A DNA stretch of 33,008 bases from Bacteroidota bacterium (lineage in GTDB: Bacteria; Bacteroidota; Bacteroidia; AKYH767-A; OLB10), in contig JAHEMF010000030.1 of assembly GCA_024643795.1 (NCBI GenBank), positions 1-33,008 of the forward strand. The letters are read 5' to 3'. The notes beneath the pieces were generated by a model, which did not search any database, had not been told where the DNA came from, and saw only the letters and a program-made list of their open reading frames with translations. Shown piece by piece: positions 7,572-21,341 of the stretch. Position numbers and translations under genes: made by a program. Numbering within the stretch: position 1 is the stretch's first letter; each line of letters opens with the position of its first letter.

Positions 7572-8186
7572 ATGAGATTATTCCAGGCCATTTTGTTAGG
7601 CTTTTTCATAATTAACACAGTATCTGCCCAAGAAGCTGAAGATACAACCTGGTTTCCTGAACAAGGTGTGTACATGTCATTGGAATCATTACAATCAGGG
7701 AAGCCTGGATATATGTTAGCTGACCTTTATAAATCACAATATGACACATCTTATACCATCAGAGAATGGTCAAGGTCGAGCAGGTTGTTGGTTACTACAT
7801 CTGTAGGTAAAAAAGCCAGCATCAGGGATTCTATTTTTTGTATATCTGAGGATGGTAGGGTGGAGCTTTATATGGGTGGAAGGTTTCACAAAGTACTTGA
7901 GTTTGGAGCTATATGCTACTTCCGTGAATCGTATAAAATTGTAAAGGATCAGATGTCGCCGGTTGTGACAGAAACATATGGTACTGCTGATTACAGGTTA
8001 CTGGAACTGAATACTGGTTTGATATATGATTTCAATCTTTCTAATGTTGAAAACCTCATTAGAAAAGATGAGGAGCTATTCAGGGAATTCAAGTCGATCA
8101 AAAGTTCAAAAAAGAGGAAAAATCTGATGTACCTCTATATTGAAAAGTTCAACAGAAGGAATCCATATCATCCCGGACAGGGTTAA
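7572..8186 (+). CDS. Exported protein of unknown function
   Basis: A 204-residue protein with a clear Sec signal peptide (M-R-L-F-Q then A-I-L-L-G-F-F-I-I, cleavage probably at V-S-A-Q near residue 19-20). The mature part starts with a G-V-Y-M-S-L-E-S-L-Q-S-G-K-P-G-Y element of a kind I associate with small uncharacterised Bacteroidota proteins. It continues as mostly beta structure and ends in a highly basic helix (R-K-D-E-E-L-F-R-E-F-K then K-S-S-K-K-R-K). No enzyme motif is recognised. It lies 10 bp upstream of the AlkB-type gene when that gene is started at its best ATG, so the two are probably cotranscribed; a functional link is only an inference. Confidence 0.75.
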   Translation: MRLFQAILLGFFIINTVSAQEAEDTTWFPEQGVYMSLESLQSGKPGYMLADLYKSQYDTSYTIREWSRSSRLLVTTSVGKKASIRDSIFCISEDGRVELYMGGRFHKVLEFGAICYFRESYKIVKDQMSPVVTETYGTADYRLLELNTGLIYDFNLSNVENLIRKDEELFREFKSIKSSKKRKNLMYLYIEKFNRRNPYHPGQG

Positions 8187-8196
8187 TTTCTACCGG

Positions 8197-9219
8197 ATGA
8201 AAAGGAACTACAAATATGGGTTAAGTGTCATTCCTTCGATCTTAACCATTGTTGGTAATTATTGCGGCGATAACTGGGTTTGGCTCAACTTTTCCTTCTC
8301 ATTATTTTTTCTGGCTTTCGCCGAAATTATCTTACCTGAGGATAAGGGTAATGAACATGATGAAGATATTTACTTTCCGGACTCATTACTGTTTTTTCAT
8401 GTTTTACTTCAGGTCTTTTGCTGGACCACATTACTTGGTTTTGTGATAAGTAATAACAATTTCTTTTTGTTCACTGGAGCAGTACTTTCAACAGGAGTAA
8501 GCACAGGTGCATCGGGTATAGTTATAGCACACGAGTTGATCCATCGTAAAAAAAGGTTATATAATCTGGCAGGACGTTTTTTATTATTTCTCGCCGGAAA
8601 TATTTACTTCTTTGTGGATCACATAAAGGGTCATCACAAAAATGTAGGCCTATACCATGATTCTGCTACAGCTCGCAGAAATGAGTCAGTGTATCATTTC
8701 TTTATCCGTTCGTCATGGGGGCAGTTAAAATTCTCGGTGAATAGTGAGTGTGATAAGCTTATAAAACAAGGAAAAAACCCTTATGGGCTTGGTAATTATG
8801 TGGTGCGTGCAACAGTTTTTCAGTTTATATTGATTGGGATACTCTTTAGTTTATTAGGACCGGTGGCGTTATTGGCACACATACTTCAGGCTTTACTTGC
8901 TAACTTTTTATTGGAATACATAAACTATATTGAACATTATGGTTTAACACGTAATGTGGGGGAGAGGGTCAATGAAGTTCACTCATGGCAGTCTGACAGA
9001 TACATTTCAAGATTTTTCCTTATCGACCTTTCCAGGCATGCAGATCATCACTACTATGCTTCTAAACCGTATCAAAAACTTCTCAGCTATAAAAATAGTC
9101 CGGTACTTCCGGGAGGATATGCTTCAACATTATACCTGGCAATGATCCCTTCATTATGGTTCCGGATCATGAACAGAAAGCTGGACCTACTGGAAGTTCA
9201 AAGAAAAGGAATCAATTAA
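8197..9219 (+). CDS. AlkB-type non-haem di-iron membrane hydroxylase (alkane/fatty-acid family)
   Basis: A 340-residue integral-membrane oxygenase from the ATG at 8197; a farther ATG at 8140 would overlap the previous gene by 47 bp and is less likely. Nine metal-site histidines of the AlkB family are present: H112 and H116 in H-E-L-I-H-R, H142, H146 and H147 in D-H-I-K-G-H-H, H247 in N-Y-I-E-H-Y-G-L, and H281, H284 and H285 in L-S-R-H-A-D-H-H followed by Y-Q-K-L. Five or six hydrophobic helices surround them. The family inserts oxygen at the terminal carbon of alkanes or alkyl chains, taking electrons from rubredoxin. Box 2 shows D where AlkB has E, and D-S where it has D-P. No rubredoxin or reductase gene is nearby, so substrate and electron donor are unknown. 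Its stop overlaps the uvrA end by 8 bp. Confidence 0.88.
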   Translation: MKRNYKYGLSVIPSILTIVGNYCGDNWVWLNFSFSLFFLAFAEIILPEDKGNEHDEDIYFPDSLLFFHVLLQVFCWTTLLGFVISNNNFFLFTGAVLSTGVSTGASGIVIAHELIHRKKRLYNLAGRFLLFLAGNIYFFVDHIKGHHKNVGLYHDSATARRNESVYHFFIRSSWGQLKFSVNSECDKLIKQGKNPYGLGNYVVRATVFQFILIGILFSLLGPVALLAHILQALLANFLLEYINYIEHYGLTRNVGERVNEVHSWQSDRYISRFFLIDLSRHADHHYYASKPYQKLLSYKNSPVLPGGYASTLYLAMIPSLWFRIMNRKLDLLEVQRKGIN

Positions 9220-12963: not shown

Positions 12964-13311
12964 TTACACCCTTTTTTCTTCAATTCTTGCTTTTTTACCT
13001 GAGAATTTACGCAGATAAAAGATCCTTGCACGTCTGACAACACCGCGCTTATTCACCTCAATACGAGATATTTTAGGGCTGTTAGTAGGGAAGATACGCT
13101 CAACGCCAACACCATTAGATATTTTGCGAACAGTGAAAGTTGCGGTGTTTTCGTGACCCTTACGCTGAAGAACCACACCCTGGAAGAGCTGTTCACGTTC
13201 CTTATTTCCTTCCTTGATCTTATACACAACAGTGACTGTATCACCGGCTTTGAATTCAGGGATTTCGCGTTTTTCTACTAGAGACTCCTCAACAAATTTA
13301 ACCAAGTCCAT
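12964..13311 (-). CDS. rplS: 50S ribosomal protein L19
   Basis: A 115-residue large-subunit protein at the 30S-50S interface. Typical features are the acidic-to-basic pattern P-E-F-K-A-G-D-T-V-T-V near residue 20, I-K-E-G-N-K-E-R-x-Q-x-F-Q-G-V-V-L, G-V-G-V-E-R-I-F-P near 70, S-P-x-I-x-x-I-E-V, and the basic end R-x-A-R-I-F-Y-L-R. The start at ATG 13311 gives the family-standard N-terminus and length. It follows trmD by 108 bp on the same strand, the classical trmD-rplS order, and ends at a strong terminator. Confidence 0.98.
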   Translation of the reverse strand: MDLVKFVEESLVEKREIPEFKAGDTVTVVYKIKEGNKEREQLFQGVVLQRKGHENTATFTVRKISNGVGVERIFPTNSPKISRIEVNKRGVVRRARIFYLRKFSGKKARIEEKRV

Positions 13312-13419: not shown

Positions 13420-14112
13420 TCAATTTGGTGGATCATCTGACAGTAGTCCAGGACGGCGTTCCAGAGTACGTTTCAGCGCCTGGTCATGCTTCCAGTCATA
13501 AATCAGTTTTTCGTTGCCTGATAGCAGGATTTCAGGAACCTTCCAGCCATTGAATTCTGCCGGTCGTGTGAACACCGGGGGGGCCAATAAGTTGTCCTGA
13601 AAAGAGTCGGACAGGGCAGAGGTCTCATCCGACATCACACCGGGTATGAGTCTCCCAACCGAATCACACAATACAGCAGCTGCCAACTCACCACCGGTTA
13701 AAACATAGTCGCCAATTGATACTTCCATAGTTATTAGGTGTTCTCTGATTCGTTCGTCTATTCCTTTATAATGTCCACACAACAAAACTAAATTTTTGTA
13801 GAGTGAAAATCTGTTACATAGCTGTTGATCAAGAAGTTTACCATCTGGACTTAAATAAATGATCTCATCATAACTGCGTTGCTTCCGGAGATCGTCAAGG
13901 CATTTAGCTACAGGTTCGATCATCATTACCATACCAGCTCCACCGCCATATGCATAGTCATCCACTGTTCGGTGCTTATCTGTTGTGTAATCCCTGAGGT
14001 TTATAAGGTTTATTTCTATCAAGCCCTTATCTCTTCCCCGTTTTATTATCGAGTGATCCAGTGGTCCGGTGAGCAACTCAGGGTGTATAGTTATTATGTC
14101 AAAATGTATCAT
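13420..14112 (-). CDS. trmD: tRNA (guanine37-N1)-methyltransferase TrmD
   Basis: A 230-residue SPOUT methyltransferase making m1G37 next to the anticodon, which prevents +1 frameshifting; cytosolic. Seen are the N-terminal [10 protein letters not shown], the [22 protein letters not shown]-type core (near residues 40-62), and the SAM-knot segment [12 protein letters not shown]. It continues with [14 protein letters not shown] and D-S-x-x-R-L-I-P-G-V. The C-terminal domain has [10 protein letters not shown]-x-G-W-x-V-P and L-L-S-G-N. Length is normal. It precedes rplS and follows the CtlX-GNAT gene by 56 bp. One of the tRNA-Leu genes in this window has G at position 37 and is a plausible substrate. 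Confidence 0.98.
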
Positions 14113-14168: not shown

Positions 14169-15566
14169 TTAGATGGATTTATTCATTGAATAATGTTGGA
14201 TTGACTCAAACAAAAGGTATGTCTTTTCCAGCATGGAATAACCACTTTTTTGATAAAAAGGTACTGCCGTTTCTCTGGCATGTAAAAATACATCCTTGTA
14301 GCCTAGTTTTGCTGCATGTTTTTCCATGGCACTTAATATAAGTTTACCCACGCCTTTTCCCCTCATCTTTTCACTAACACCCATATACCTGAATTGAACC
14401 GTTTCATCGTTTATAGGATGCATTCTGCCAACTGCCATCACTCTTTCTTCCTCATCGAGCACCATGTAATGTAGCGCCTTATCTTCATCCTCACCAAATT
14501 CTGTTCCTTCAGGCTGATCCCATGGCTCACGGAGTATTTCCCATCTCAAGCGAAAGTATTGCTGAAGATCACTCTCAGTAATCGGAGAAGTAACCTTGAA
14601 TCCGTTTGAAACTGCATATACCTTTGGAAGGAAGTTTTCTGCTATCATACATCGTGCTCCGCCGCCTCCTACTGCTTCAATAGTAGGTATTGAAACACTC
14701 ACGATCTCTGAAAATCTTTCAATGTTCCTTTTTTGTGACGTAAGCAGGCTTTTGAGGGCACTTTCGGATGCTATGGTTAAAGGGGTGCCATTTACAACCA
14801 TAGTGATCATATTGCCGGCAAAGCAAAACATTTGATCTGGGGTAATATGAATCAAATTTCTTCCGGTTTCTTCCAGTTTTGCCAAAACCCTTTTCGATTC
14901 AGTTATCGGCCCAATGGTGTCAGTGCATATAATGGCAAAACCCGGTGCCAGGTTCATTAGAACATTGGTATGGTAAACCGGAGGGGTGGAGTTTGTTTCA
15001 AAAGTAACCGGTTCAAGGTTGTTGAGTTGACAATAATACTCAACGGCTGATTTGTGTGTGCGGTTGCTTAATGCAGCAAAACATAGCTGATTAAGATTAT
15101 CAATTACCATTGAACCTGTACCTTCTAGTATTTGACCAATAGTGAACAGCTTGCGGAGATCGGTGAATTTTGAGATCCTGAATCCTAAAGATTCAATTGT
15201 TTGTGAAAGATCCTCTGTTACCTCTGTCTTTCTTATATCTGATAACATGGGAAAAATATACAAAGATGCATCAGGTGTGGTATTGAACCAATTGTTCAGA
15301 AATACCGAATCCGGACTCCTGCATGCAGCAGGTTCTTCCAGAACATCAATGTGGATTTGCTTTGATGACAGCTTTGTGATCATTCCTTCAAATTCCTTCA
15401 AAGCTATTGCTGATACATCTTGTCCTGGATCTTTTTGAAATACATTAGAAATTGCAGTTTCGGCGTTGAATCCAAAATGTGAGGGCCGTCTTACAAAAAC
15501 TGAATCGGTATATGTTCTGGCACTGAGATGATCTGCAAGAGCGGTAATTTTTTGATGATTAACCAT
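14169..15566 (-). CDS. CtlX/arginine-deiminase-like hydrolase fused to a GNAT acetyltransferase
   Basis: A 465-residue two-domain protein. Residues about 20-315 resemble the CtlX branch of the guanidino-group-modifying (amidinotransferase/arginine deiminase) superfamily. The signs are R-R-P-S-H-F-G-F-N-A-E-T-A-I-S-N, P-D-S-V-F-L-N-N-W-F at 85-94, L-E-G-T-G-S-M-V at 147-154 (E148), Y-H-T-N-V with H199, and G-G-G-G-A-R-C-M-I-A-E with the expected nucleophile C306. Such enzymes hydrolyse or transfer groups at arginine-like guanidines. Residues about 323-455 are a GNAT fold: a loose substrate region, then M-G-V-S-E-K-M-R-G-K-G-V-G-K-L (acetyl-CoA loop, about 395-409) and V-P-F-Y-Q-K-S-G-Y at the end. 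Both active sites look intact. The start codon is 5 bp after the stop of the DnaQ/GIY-YIG gene. The substrate is unknown; arginine derivatives are plausible. Confidence 0.82.
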   Translation of the reverse strand: MVNHQKITALADHLSARTYTDSVFVRRPSHFGFNAETAISNVFQKDPGQDVSAIALKEFEGMITKLSSKQIHIDVLEEPAACRSPDSVFLNNWFNTTPDASLYIFPMLSDIRKTEVTEDLSQTIESLGFRISKFTDLRKLFTIGQILEGTGSMVIDNLNQLCFAALSNRTHKSAVEYYCQLNNLEPVTFETNSTPPVYHTNVLMNLAPGFAIICTDTIGPITESKRVLAKLEETGRNLIHITPDQMFCFAGNMITMVVNGTPLTIASESALKSLLTSQKRNIERFSEIVSVSIPTIEAVGGGGARCMIAENFLPKVYAVSNGFKVTSPITESDLQQYFRLRWEILREPWDQPEGTEFGEDEDKALHYMVLDEEERVMAVGRMHPINDETVQFRYMGVSEKMRGKGVGKLILSAMEKHAAKLGYKDVFLHARETAVPFYQKSGYSMLEKTYLLFESIQHYSMNKSI

Positions 15567-15571
15567 CAGTA

Positions 15572-16675
15572 CTAATTATAATAATGTTTGAAAAACCGAC
15601 TCACAACCGGGTCAGAAGGTATTGGTGTAAGTACTTCCAGTATCGTTTCCGGGTCCCGGATCTGAATAGTTTCATCAGCGATCATATACCCGACAGGTGT
15701 ATTGTTACAAATAGCGAATAATGTTTTTTGGTTTGAAGTAGGACCAGCCTCAAAATGAAACTTCAGTGAATCTTCGGGATTTTGATTTGATATTTGAATT
15801 ATATCATGATCCCCTTCATATTGTACTCCTTGCGCTACCAAACTCTTTCTGTTAAATGGAGGTTGATGTTTCTTAATGAGCTCCCATTCTTTCAGGTTTG
15901 CCAAGGTGTAACTTCCGGTTACCTCGTAATCCACGCTAACAGCATTTTTTGCAAGCCTTTCGAATTTTTTTCCGGTAAAACGCAACAACTTACTGATGGC
16001 TTTTTGCTTTATATTTTTTGCTTTCGCTACATGAAGAATACTGCCATCCTGATCAGAGAACCAAAATATCCCGCATCCGTTTGGAAGTTCATCAAACTGG
16101 CTTCGTTTTAATTTGAGGTCGTCTGGTATGGAATAATAGCCATCGGTATATGTGATGATATCATTTTGGGCTATGGCAATCAGATTATGTAAAATTTCAG
16201 CAGTAGCAATTGCATCAGCCAATGCCCTGTGGGCGTTCTTTAACTCAATGTTGAGATGATTACTCAGGTTTGACAGCCCATAAGATGGAGCACCTTTTAT
16301 TAATTTCCTGGAGGTCCTGTAAGAGCATAATACCTGCCGATCGAACTCAAGGTTAAGGAGCTTAAATTCTTTTTTCAGAAAATTATAATCAAAAGACGCA
16401 TTATGAGCTACAAAACAACATCCTTCTGTTTTTTCAAGTATCCGGTCACTGATGCTTCTGAAGTCGGGTGCATGGGTGAGCATTTCATCTCTTATGCCGG
16501 TGATCTTAGAAATAAATGGCGGAACAGGAATGCCCGGATCTATGAGTGAGTCAAATGTTTCAACGATCTTATAGCCATCGGATATAACAATGCCAACTTC
16601 TATGACCCTGTCGGTGATGGGATTACCACCGGTGGTTTCAAGATCAACTACTGCGTAACGTTGTGGGGAACTCAT
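15572..16675 (-). CDS. DnaQ-type 3'-5' exonuclease fused to a degenerate GIY-YIG domain
   Basis: A 367-residue protein from ATG 16675 (a TTG 21 bp upstream is less likely). Residues about 5-165 are a DEDDh exonuclease of the DNA polymerase III epsilon type: D11 and E13 in V-V-D-L-E-T-T-G-G, D96 in A-H-N-A-S-F-D, and H149/D154 in N-A-H-R-A-L-A-D-A. Residues about 197-280 align with a UvrC/Cho-like GIY-YIG domain, ending with the typical E-L-I-K-K-H-Q-P-P-F-N. In its core, though, G-V-Y has become G-I-F (202-204) and L-Y-V-G has become L-H-V-A (214-217), so nuclease activity there is doubtful. A further roughly 85-residue C-terminal part is unassigned. Exonuclease/GIY-YIG fusions occur widely in bacteria and are presumed to act in DNA repair. 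It is first in a run leading to trmD-rplS. Confidence 0.88.
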   Translation of the reverse strand: MSSPQRYAVVDLETTGGNPITDRVIEVGIVISDGYKIVETFDSLIDPGIPVPPFISKITGIRDEMLTHAPDFRSISDRILEKTEGCCFVAHNASFDYNFLKKEFKLLNLEFDRQVLCSYRTSRKLIKGAPSYGLSNLSNHLNIELKNAHRALADAIATAEILHNLIAIAQNDIITYTDGYYSIPDDLKLKRSQFDELPNGCGIFWFSDQDGSILHVAKAKNIKQKAISKLLRFTGKKFERLAKNAVSVDYEVTGSYTLANLKEWELIKKHQPPFNRKSLVAQGVQYEGDHDIIQISNQNPEDSLKFHFEAGPTSNQKTLFAICNNTPVGYMIADETIQIRDPETILEVLTPIPSDPVVSRFFKHYYN

Positions 16676-16790
16676 TTTGGTTCTAATATAACACAAAAAA
16701 CATGCATTGAAAGGATCGTTGATTCATTTTTTTAAGGTTCTAATTGAAGCTTAACCAAGAATTTTCATTGCTAAATTGAGTAAAAAAAAG
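16676..16790. other. Gene-free stretch between the DnaQ-type gene and the repeat array
   Basis: AT-rich intergenic DNA upstream of the DnaQ-type gene. A run of eight A residues at 16782-16789 (T8 on the minus strand) ends the repeat array and may serve as the U-tract terminating the tRNA transcript. No promoter box with a good match was found for the DnaQ-type gene. Confidence 0.5.
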
Positions 16791-20312: not shown

Positions 20313-21341
20313 TCACTTGGTGGCAAACATTAAATGATCTTCCAGTGCTTTGGGTAATGCAGGTATTTTGCGTCGTTCAACCAGATAGGAGGTAAGTTCG
20401 GCGATCTCTTGAAAGATATAATGTTTATCGAGTGCTGCTTTTAAATAATCCTTTCCGCTGCTGCCTCCTGTTCCTACACGTGTACCAATCATGCGATGTA
20501 CCATGTTCATATGCCGGTAACGCCATGTTGCCATTTGTTCGTCGATCTCCAGCAGGCAATTCAACAGTTGATAAGGCACTTGCAATAACGGGTAATCACG
20601 GTATAACATAATGAACAAAGCGGCTCTGTTCGCCTTTGCACTCAGTCTGCGGTCAGCTGTGAACTCATTGCTGAAAAGCAGGTCATCAAATCTTTGTCTG
20701 TTTTCTTTTTCGCCGGTAACCAAACTTGATGTATAAGCATCAGCATACTTGTGCCAGAATCCTTTTGCTGCACCCTCAAATCCAGACCAGTATTCTTCAT
20801 TCTCAATGAATGGCATCCTTTCAAGCCATTGGTTTAGAGCTTCAATCACTGAAGTCTGAGCTTCTACACTTTGAACGTCATCTTTTTGTTCTTGGCGGAG
20901 TTGTGACAGGTAATACTCCTTTCCGTGACGATCTTTTAATTTTAACCCCAGTGATGCTTCAACTTGTTTGAATTGAACGCTCTGAAATCCGGAAGCGGGA
21001 CGTAACAGATCCCTGAAATCAAGAAAATCCAGTGGAGTCATTGTTTCCATGATCGATATCTGATGTACTGCAACTTCCAGGATCTTTATCACTCTTTTCA
21101 TCCGATGGACCACTGTGTTCAGATCGGGTGAGTTGTCATTGATCTGCCCCTTGCTGAAAATAGATTTAATGGAATTGATCTCGAACAAGATCTGTTTGAA
21201 CCACAGTTCATATGCCTGATGTGTAATAATAAAAAGCATCTCATCATGTGCTTCAACTCCTGCCAGGTCGCTCTCAGGTTGCTGGGCATTGAGTATTTTT
21301 TCAAGTTGAAGGTAGTCGCCGTAGTAAACTTCTTTTGACAT
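20313..21341 (-). CDS. kynA: Tryptophan 2,3-dioxygenase
   Basis: A 342-residue haem enzyme that opens the indole ring of L-tryptophan to N-formylkynurenine, the first step of the kynurenine pathway; cytosolic tetramer in characterised members. Clear motifs are the substrate-site H41 in I-T-H-Q-A-Y-E-L-W-F-K-Q, the D-F-L-D-F-R-D-L-L-R-P-A-S-G-F-Q-S block near 106-121, and the proximal haem ligand H277 in W-R-Y-R-H-M. T291 lies in the G-T-G-G-S-S-G loop that binds the substrate amino group, 14 residues after H277 as in the human enzyme. It follows the sodium/solute symporter by 36 bp on the same strand. No other kynurenine genes lie in the window. Confidence 0.97.
   Translation of the reverse strand: MSKEVYYGDYLQLEKILNAQQPESDLAGVEAHDEMLFIITHQAYELWFKQILFEINSIKSIFSKGQINDNSPDLNTVVHRMKRVIKILEVAVHQISIMETMTPLDFLDFRDLLRPASGFQSVQFKQVEASLGLKLKDRHGKEYYLSQLRQEQKDDVQSVEAQTSVIEALNQWLERMPFIENEEYWSGFEGAAKGFWHKYADAYTSSLVTGEKENRQRFDDLLFSNEFTADRRLSAKANRAALFIMLYRDYPLLQVPYQLLNCLLEIDEQMATWRYRHMNMVHRMIGTRVGTGGSSGKDYLKAALDKHYIFQEIAELTSYLVERRKIPALPKALEDHLMFATK

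Follow-up and report, generated by a model that had tools for sequence, protein, structure and literature searches.

A protein joining a CtlX-type predicted citrulline hydrolase to a GNAT acetyltransferase in Bacteroidota

Contig JAHEMF010000030.1 of the Bacteroidota bacterium assembly GCA_024643795.1, a stretch of 33,008 nucleotides referred to here as the window, encodes a protein in which a CtlX-like domain is followed by a GNAT acetyltransferase domain. The first-pass annotation recognised the fusion and both of its halves, and took it to imply either consecutive chemistry or shared recognition of one arginine-like substrate. The locus raises the questions of what each half does and why the two came to share one polypeptide. 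The reading that we regard as fairly probable is that of a two-domain enzyme, comprising a CtlX-type citrulline hydrolase and a GNAT of the YjcF/SACOL1063 clade, which were joined as former neighbours and would be largely independent in their work.

The fused gene and its distribution

A single uninterrupted frame spans both halves of the protein, of CtlX/DDAH type at aa ~20-315 and GNAT at aa ~322-465 (Table 1). The Pfam models DDAH_eukar and Acetyltransf_1 match aa 31-312 and aa 335-443, respectively, in agreement with the first-pass assignments. The NCBIfam CtlX model NF046062 aligns to aa 23-312 but its score of 286 bits does not reach the equivalog cut-off of 334, which counts against the CtlX assignment, whereas the fused homologue of genome G026 passes at 365.5 bits. 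The gene lies between trmD-rplS and a nuclease gene, as had been noted; the latter encodes a DnaQ-type exonuclease that matches UvrC at about aa 198-284 and is separated from the fused gene by 5 bases. No second CtlX was found in this genome (2.88 Mb in 110 contigs, 99.8% complete). Elsewhere in the window a fatty-acid desaturase-type membrane protein (8140-9219, plus strand, PF00487 91.1 bits) and a tryptophan 2,3-dioxygenase family protein (20313-21341, minus strand, PF03301 276.6 bits) are encoded.

Table 1. Coordinates of the fused gene, its candidate functional residues and its neighbours in the window
Feature	Position	Strand	Evidence
rplS (L19)	12964..13311	minus	TIGR01024 139.8 bits
trmD, downstream neighbour	13420..14112	minus	NF000648 298.7 bits
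Fused CtlX-GNAT gene, 465 aa, ATG start	14169..15566	minus	Homologous fusions in G026 and G027
GNAT half, aa 322-465	14172..14603	minus	PF00583 53.3 bits; model pLDDT 95.1; SACOL1063/YjcF fold
Acetyl-CoA loop R402-G407 (RGKGVG)	14346..14363	minus	Last Gly invariant in 21/21 GNAT rows
Short junction, aa 316-321	14604..14621	minus	Protein alignment with G026/G027 fusions
CtlX-type half, aa 20-315	14622..15509	minus	PF19420 253.5 bits; NF046062 286.4 bits; best PDB fold ArgZ
C306, nucleophile candidate	14649..14651	minus	62/62 CtlX rows
N201, at the position of the second guanidinium-binding Asp of deiminases	14964..14966	minus	Asn in 62/62 CtlX rows
H199, catalytic His candidate	14970..14972	minus	62/62 CtlX rows
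E148, catalytic Glu candidate	15123..15125	minus	62/62 CtlX rows
N92, at the position of the first guanidinium-binding Asp of deiminases	15291..15293	minus	Asn in 62/62 CtlX rows
Upstream neighbour, a DnaQ-type exonuclease with a UvrC-like stretch at its C terminus	15572..16696	minus	PF00929 121.2 bits

Both halves occur in one uninterrupted frame in three of 39 genomes of the order, namely the window genome (G000), G026 and G027, while in G028 a TAG codon lies between the halves and makes them two adjacent genes. Among the stronger matches, listed from 396 genomes drawn from the class, only G000, G026 and the interrupted G028 show both halves together. The G026 and G027 proteins, from the same family and with the same gene order, are 41-42% identical to the window protein, and their junction, which follows FLPK, is similar to that of the window protein and of nearly equal length. 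The CtlX parts of G026 and G027 differ with a dN/dS ratio of 0.09 and their GNAT parts with one of 0.16, so that both parts appear to be under constraint. Since the same fusion is encoded by two further genomes with both halves constrained, a frameshift or assembly artefact was rejected as its source. The fusion, which is conserved in at least three genomes, combines known domains in a new way. It was not seen at any of 80 named genome loci, of which 72 contain a CtlX ORF above 100 bits, nor did any of the 151 plasmid records with matches cover 80% of the query. A literature search on CtlX and on fusions of citrullinase or DDAH with acetyltransferases returned no title naming a CtlX-GNAT fusion. 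A long CtlX frame of 514 aa at locus L116 was discarded, as it appears to owe its length to high-GC DNA through which the frame runs on falsely.

Fold and predicted chemistry of the two halves

The full-length model of the protein (pLDDT 87.6) gives the CtlX half the fold of the guanidino-modifying superfamily, and the alignment shows the Cys, His and Glu residues at the positions named by the first-pass annotation. The best PDB match over model residues 20-314 is ArgZ with a Z score of 29.7; the ArgZ/AgrE arginine dihydrolases (PDB 6jv0, 6jv1, 6lrf) score 29-30 and superimpose with an rmsd of 2.5-2.6 over 266-268 residues, followed by AstB (25-27), DDAH (25-26) and ADI (22-24.5). Differences in Z of less than 1 count as ties, and a common fold proves no function. 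The two acidic residues that bind the guanidinium group in arginine deiminase and DDAH are absent, and asparagines take their places in the motifs FLNN (aa 89-92) and HTN (aa 199-201). In P. gingivalis PAD (PPAD) the guanidinium is bound by D130 and D238, of which D130 is indispensable while substitution of D238 by Ala or Asn abolishes activity (PMC4487231); judging from the superfamily alignment these probably occupy the same two positions as N92 and N201. The same exchange is described for CtlX, where FTRD has become FPNN and HLD has become HTN, by Price et al. (2022), who regarded CtlX as a putative citrullinase and called for biochemical studies (PMC9007349).

The window half thus shares with CtlX its sequence family, the FxNN and HTN motifs, the Cys nucleophile motif and a context of ornithine catabolism, and differs in being fused to a GNAT. 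ArgZ and AgrE resemble it in having Asn at the first acid position (N92 is aligned by HMMER to N71 of AgrE, numbered by counting along the alignment) and in being two-domain proteins, with an ornithine cyclodeaminase as partner according to the name of the NCBIfam model, and their reaction ends at ornithine. They are 14% identical to the window protein and, unlike it, retain HLD at the second position and carry another partner domain. The CtlX half probably converts citrulline to ornithine. C306 would attack the ureido carbon of citrulline with H199 as acid/base, N92 and N201 would hold the neutral ureido group, and the ornithine released may pass to ornithine aminotransferase.

The surroundings of CtlX in other genomes were surveyed by BLAST with example proteins in 106 loci, taken both from the genomes drawn from the class and from named genomes, with flanks of 1.5 to 6 kb that were in some cases limited by contig ends. 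ADI-family genes were found near CtlX in 17 loci, argS in 10, arginase in three and ornithine aminotransferase in three; at least one of these was present in 25 of the 106 loci and none in the other 81. A Saprospiraceae MAG (L139:2230-5562) carries rocD and, just after it, a gene for a 648-aa arginase-CtlX fusion (arginase 215.1 bits against a cut-off of 227.6; CtlX 414.8 bits). Here CtlX is likewise joined to a second enzyme, but the partner is an arginase, the upstream gene is rocD and the arrangement was seen once, in one MAG. Both halves of this protein are predicted to yield ornithine. The invariant Asn pair, the dihydrolase-like fold, the arginase-CtlX protein beside rocD and the presence of ornithine aminotransferase without arginine synthesis (see below) converge on ornithine as the product of the CtlX half.

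The C-terminal half, modelled alone, combines a GNAT fold with an acetyl-CoA loop. The consensus of this loop in GNAT proteins is Q/R-x-x-G-x-G/A, and the RGKGVG sequence is found where the first-pass annotation placed it. The closest folds are SACOL1063 (PDB 5jph; Z 21.8, rmsd 1.8 over 143 residues) and YjcF (PDB 1q2y; Z 20.4), ahead of glyphosate acetyltransferase (Z 19.6) and RimI (Z 17.7). Unlike the window protein, SACOL1063 and YjcF are single-domain chains; they are 27-32% identical to the GNAT half and their substrate loop differs by eye. AbHpa2, a homologue of SACOL1063, is reported to acetylate Thr, Trp, Tyr, Ser, Arg and His "similarly to its homologue" (PMC10267138). The C-terminal half is probably a functional acetyl-CoA-dependent GNAT of this clade, with a small amino compound as its acyl acceptor.

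Gene order and the origin of the fusion

The wider associations of the GNAT gene were examined in 30 loci taken from the 59 matching genomes among 197, seven of them inside the order of the window genome and 23 outside. A class III CoA-transferase gene (caiB) lies within 1.5 kb of the GNAT gene in 14 of the 23 outside loci, whereas neither CtlX nor trmD was found within that distance in any of them. On this wider scale the GNAT therefore pairs with the CoA-transferase, which suggests an acyl-CoA route for the GNAT. The CaiB-GNAT pair recurs across Bacteroidia (L206, L207, L212, L213, L214 and nine further loci); at L191 a DUF6089 beta-barrel gene stands between the two genes, and a similar layout is seen by eye in other loci.

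Within the family, 18 genomes contain CtlX. The halves are fused in three, directly adjacent in two (G025 and G028) and apart in six, while four (G019, G032, G033 and G034) have the order ctlX-caiB-GNAT and another three (G020, G030 and G031) fit this order across contig ends. Some relatives retain ctlX-caiB-GNAT-trmD. CaiB is absent from all five genomes with fused or adjacent genes, and the window genome has no PF02515 match at all. The six genomes in which ctlX and the GNAT gene lie apart (G017, G018 and G035-G038) lack CaiB too, so that its loss by itself does not predict adjacency. On the simplest reading, a cluster of the order exonuclease-ctlX-(caiB)-GNAT-trmD-rplS would have lost caiB, leaving ctlX and the GNAT gene as neighbours that subsequently fused. 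The gene order in relatives suggests that the genes fused because they had become neighbours, and with synteny supplying this simpler cause the claim that the fusion implies consecutive chemistry is not supported. The CtlX tree and the GNAT tree each need two changes to account for the fusion, a number that the starred branches of the latter make obligatory; an AU test leaves a single fused clade unrejected (p-AU 0.289 and 0.383). Two origins, if true, would favour a functional link between the halves.

Metabolic setting and alternative readings

The window genome has no ADI match (PF02274), and its sole carbamoyltransferase match (PF00185) is pyrB, located beside a gene that by eye is pyrR-like. 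ArgG was not found above cut-off in any of the 24 family genomes (control 14/14), nine of which have weak matches below it, whereas ornithine aminotransferase exceeds its cut-off in 23 and all 24 encode an arginase family protein. The acetylated-citrulline route of arginine synthesis that the first-pass annotation had entertained was rejected, as it would require an N-acetyl- or N-succinylornithine carbamoyltransferase and ArgG. The capacity for ornithine breakdown together with the missing ArgG agrees with catabolism or salvage and not with arginine synthesis. Arginine auxotrophy is probable across the whole family.

The main competitor to largely independent halves is a sequence of two steps, in which ornithine made from citrulline is N-acylated by the GNAT half and thereby trapped as N-acetylornithine or another acylornithine. 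In Proteobacteria ctlX often lies beside aruG, an ornithine/arginine succinyltransferase gene (PMC9007349), and the amino acid acetylation by AbHpa2, a homologue of the nearest solved GNAT relative, as well as the possibly double origin of the fusion would agree with such a sequence of reactions. Yet outside the order the GNAT gene lies near caiB in 14 of the 23 loci and near CtlX in none, and within the family it persists in four genomes that lack CtlX (G021, G022, G024 and G029), which makes consecutive chemistry rather unlikely. It is more doubtful still that the ureido compound hydrolysed by the CtlX half is something other than free citrulline, such as C-terminal peptidyl-citrulline or N-carbamoylputrescine. 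The co-occurrence of CtlX with a secreted PPAD-like protein, described below, speaks for a substrate of this kind, and the genes of free arginine and ornithine metabolism in 25 of the 106 CtlX loci speak against it.

Two further readings have little probability. That the CtlX half is a guanidino hydrolase of the arginine or methylarginine deiminase type, as the first-pass annotation proposed, is in keeping with its superfamily and its retained Cys, His and Glu, but the loss of both guanidinium-binding acids throughout the alignment and the inactivity of PPAD D238N (PMC4487231) make it very improbable, and the label was rejected. A role of the GNAT half in translation, acting on tRNA or a ribosomal protein and riding with trmD-rplS, is the least credible of all: trmD does follow the GNAT gene in 13 family genomes, and the two are also adjacent in G001 of another family, but this linkage is missing from all 23 loci outside the order and the YjcF and SACOL1063 folds rank above RimI. 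It is the CtlX-type citrulline hydrolase joined to a formerly neighbouring GNAT that best accounts for the locus.

A second contig of the window genome (C55, L215:6607-8328) encodes a candidate source of citrulline, a PPAD-like protein of 573 aa with a signal-like N terminus and a T9SS sorting tail. It matches the PAD_porph domain with 134.8 bits and aligns with P. gingivalis PAD at aa 50-480 with an E value of 1.2e-40, and in the alignment it keeps the RDY, HxD, N and C elements of the catalytic set. The counterpart of PPAD Y233 appears by eye to be Val, and the substrate preference may differ. PPAD-like frames of this length occur in 15 of the 18 CtlX-bearing family genomes and in none of the five that lack CtlX (Fisher p 0.0017, a value that ignores kinship, four of the five belonging to one genus). 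The architecture was established by Pfam for G000 and G026 only and the other genomes were counted by frame length; G416, whose CtlX status was not examined, was left out. A 2015 paper stated that among prokaryotes P. gingivalis alone citrullinates (PMC4487231), although similar bacterial PADs are in print for Bacteroidetes and Gammaproteobacteria (PMC7864903). A speculative scheme, to which we attach a low probability, is that in arginine-auxotrophic environmental Bacteroidota a T9SS-secreted PPAD-like enzyme citrullinates peptides outside the cell, the products are imported, CtlX recovers ornithine from them and, in some lineages, the fused GNAT acylates that ornithine at once.

The analysis confirms that the fusion is real, but the fusion by itself reveals no new pathway, and it warns against taking domain fusions as evidence for pathways where gene order can account for them in a simple structural way. 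The predicted citrullinase activity of the widespread CtlX is made directly testable by the comparisons described here. Should the link between the PPAD-like protein and CtlX hold, it would offer a reason for protein citrullination by non-pathogenic bacteria; under the peptide-citrullination scheme, if true, the citrullination of proteins would serve bacterial nutrition.
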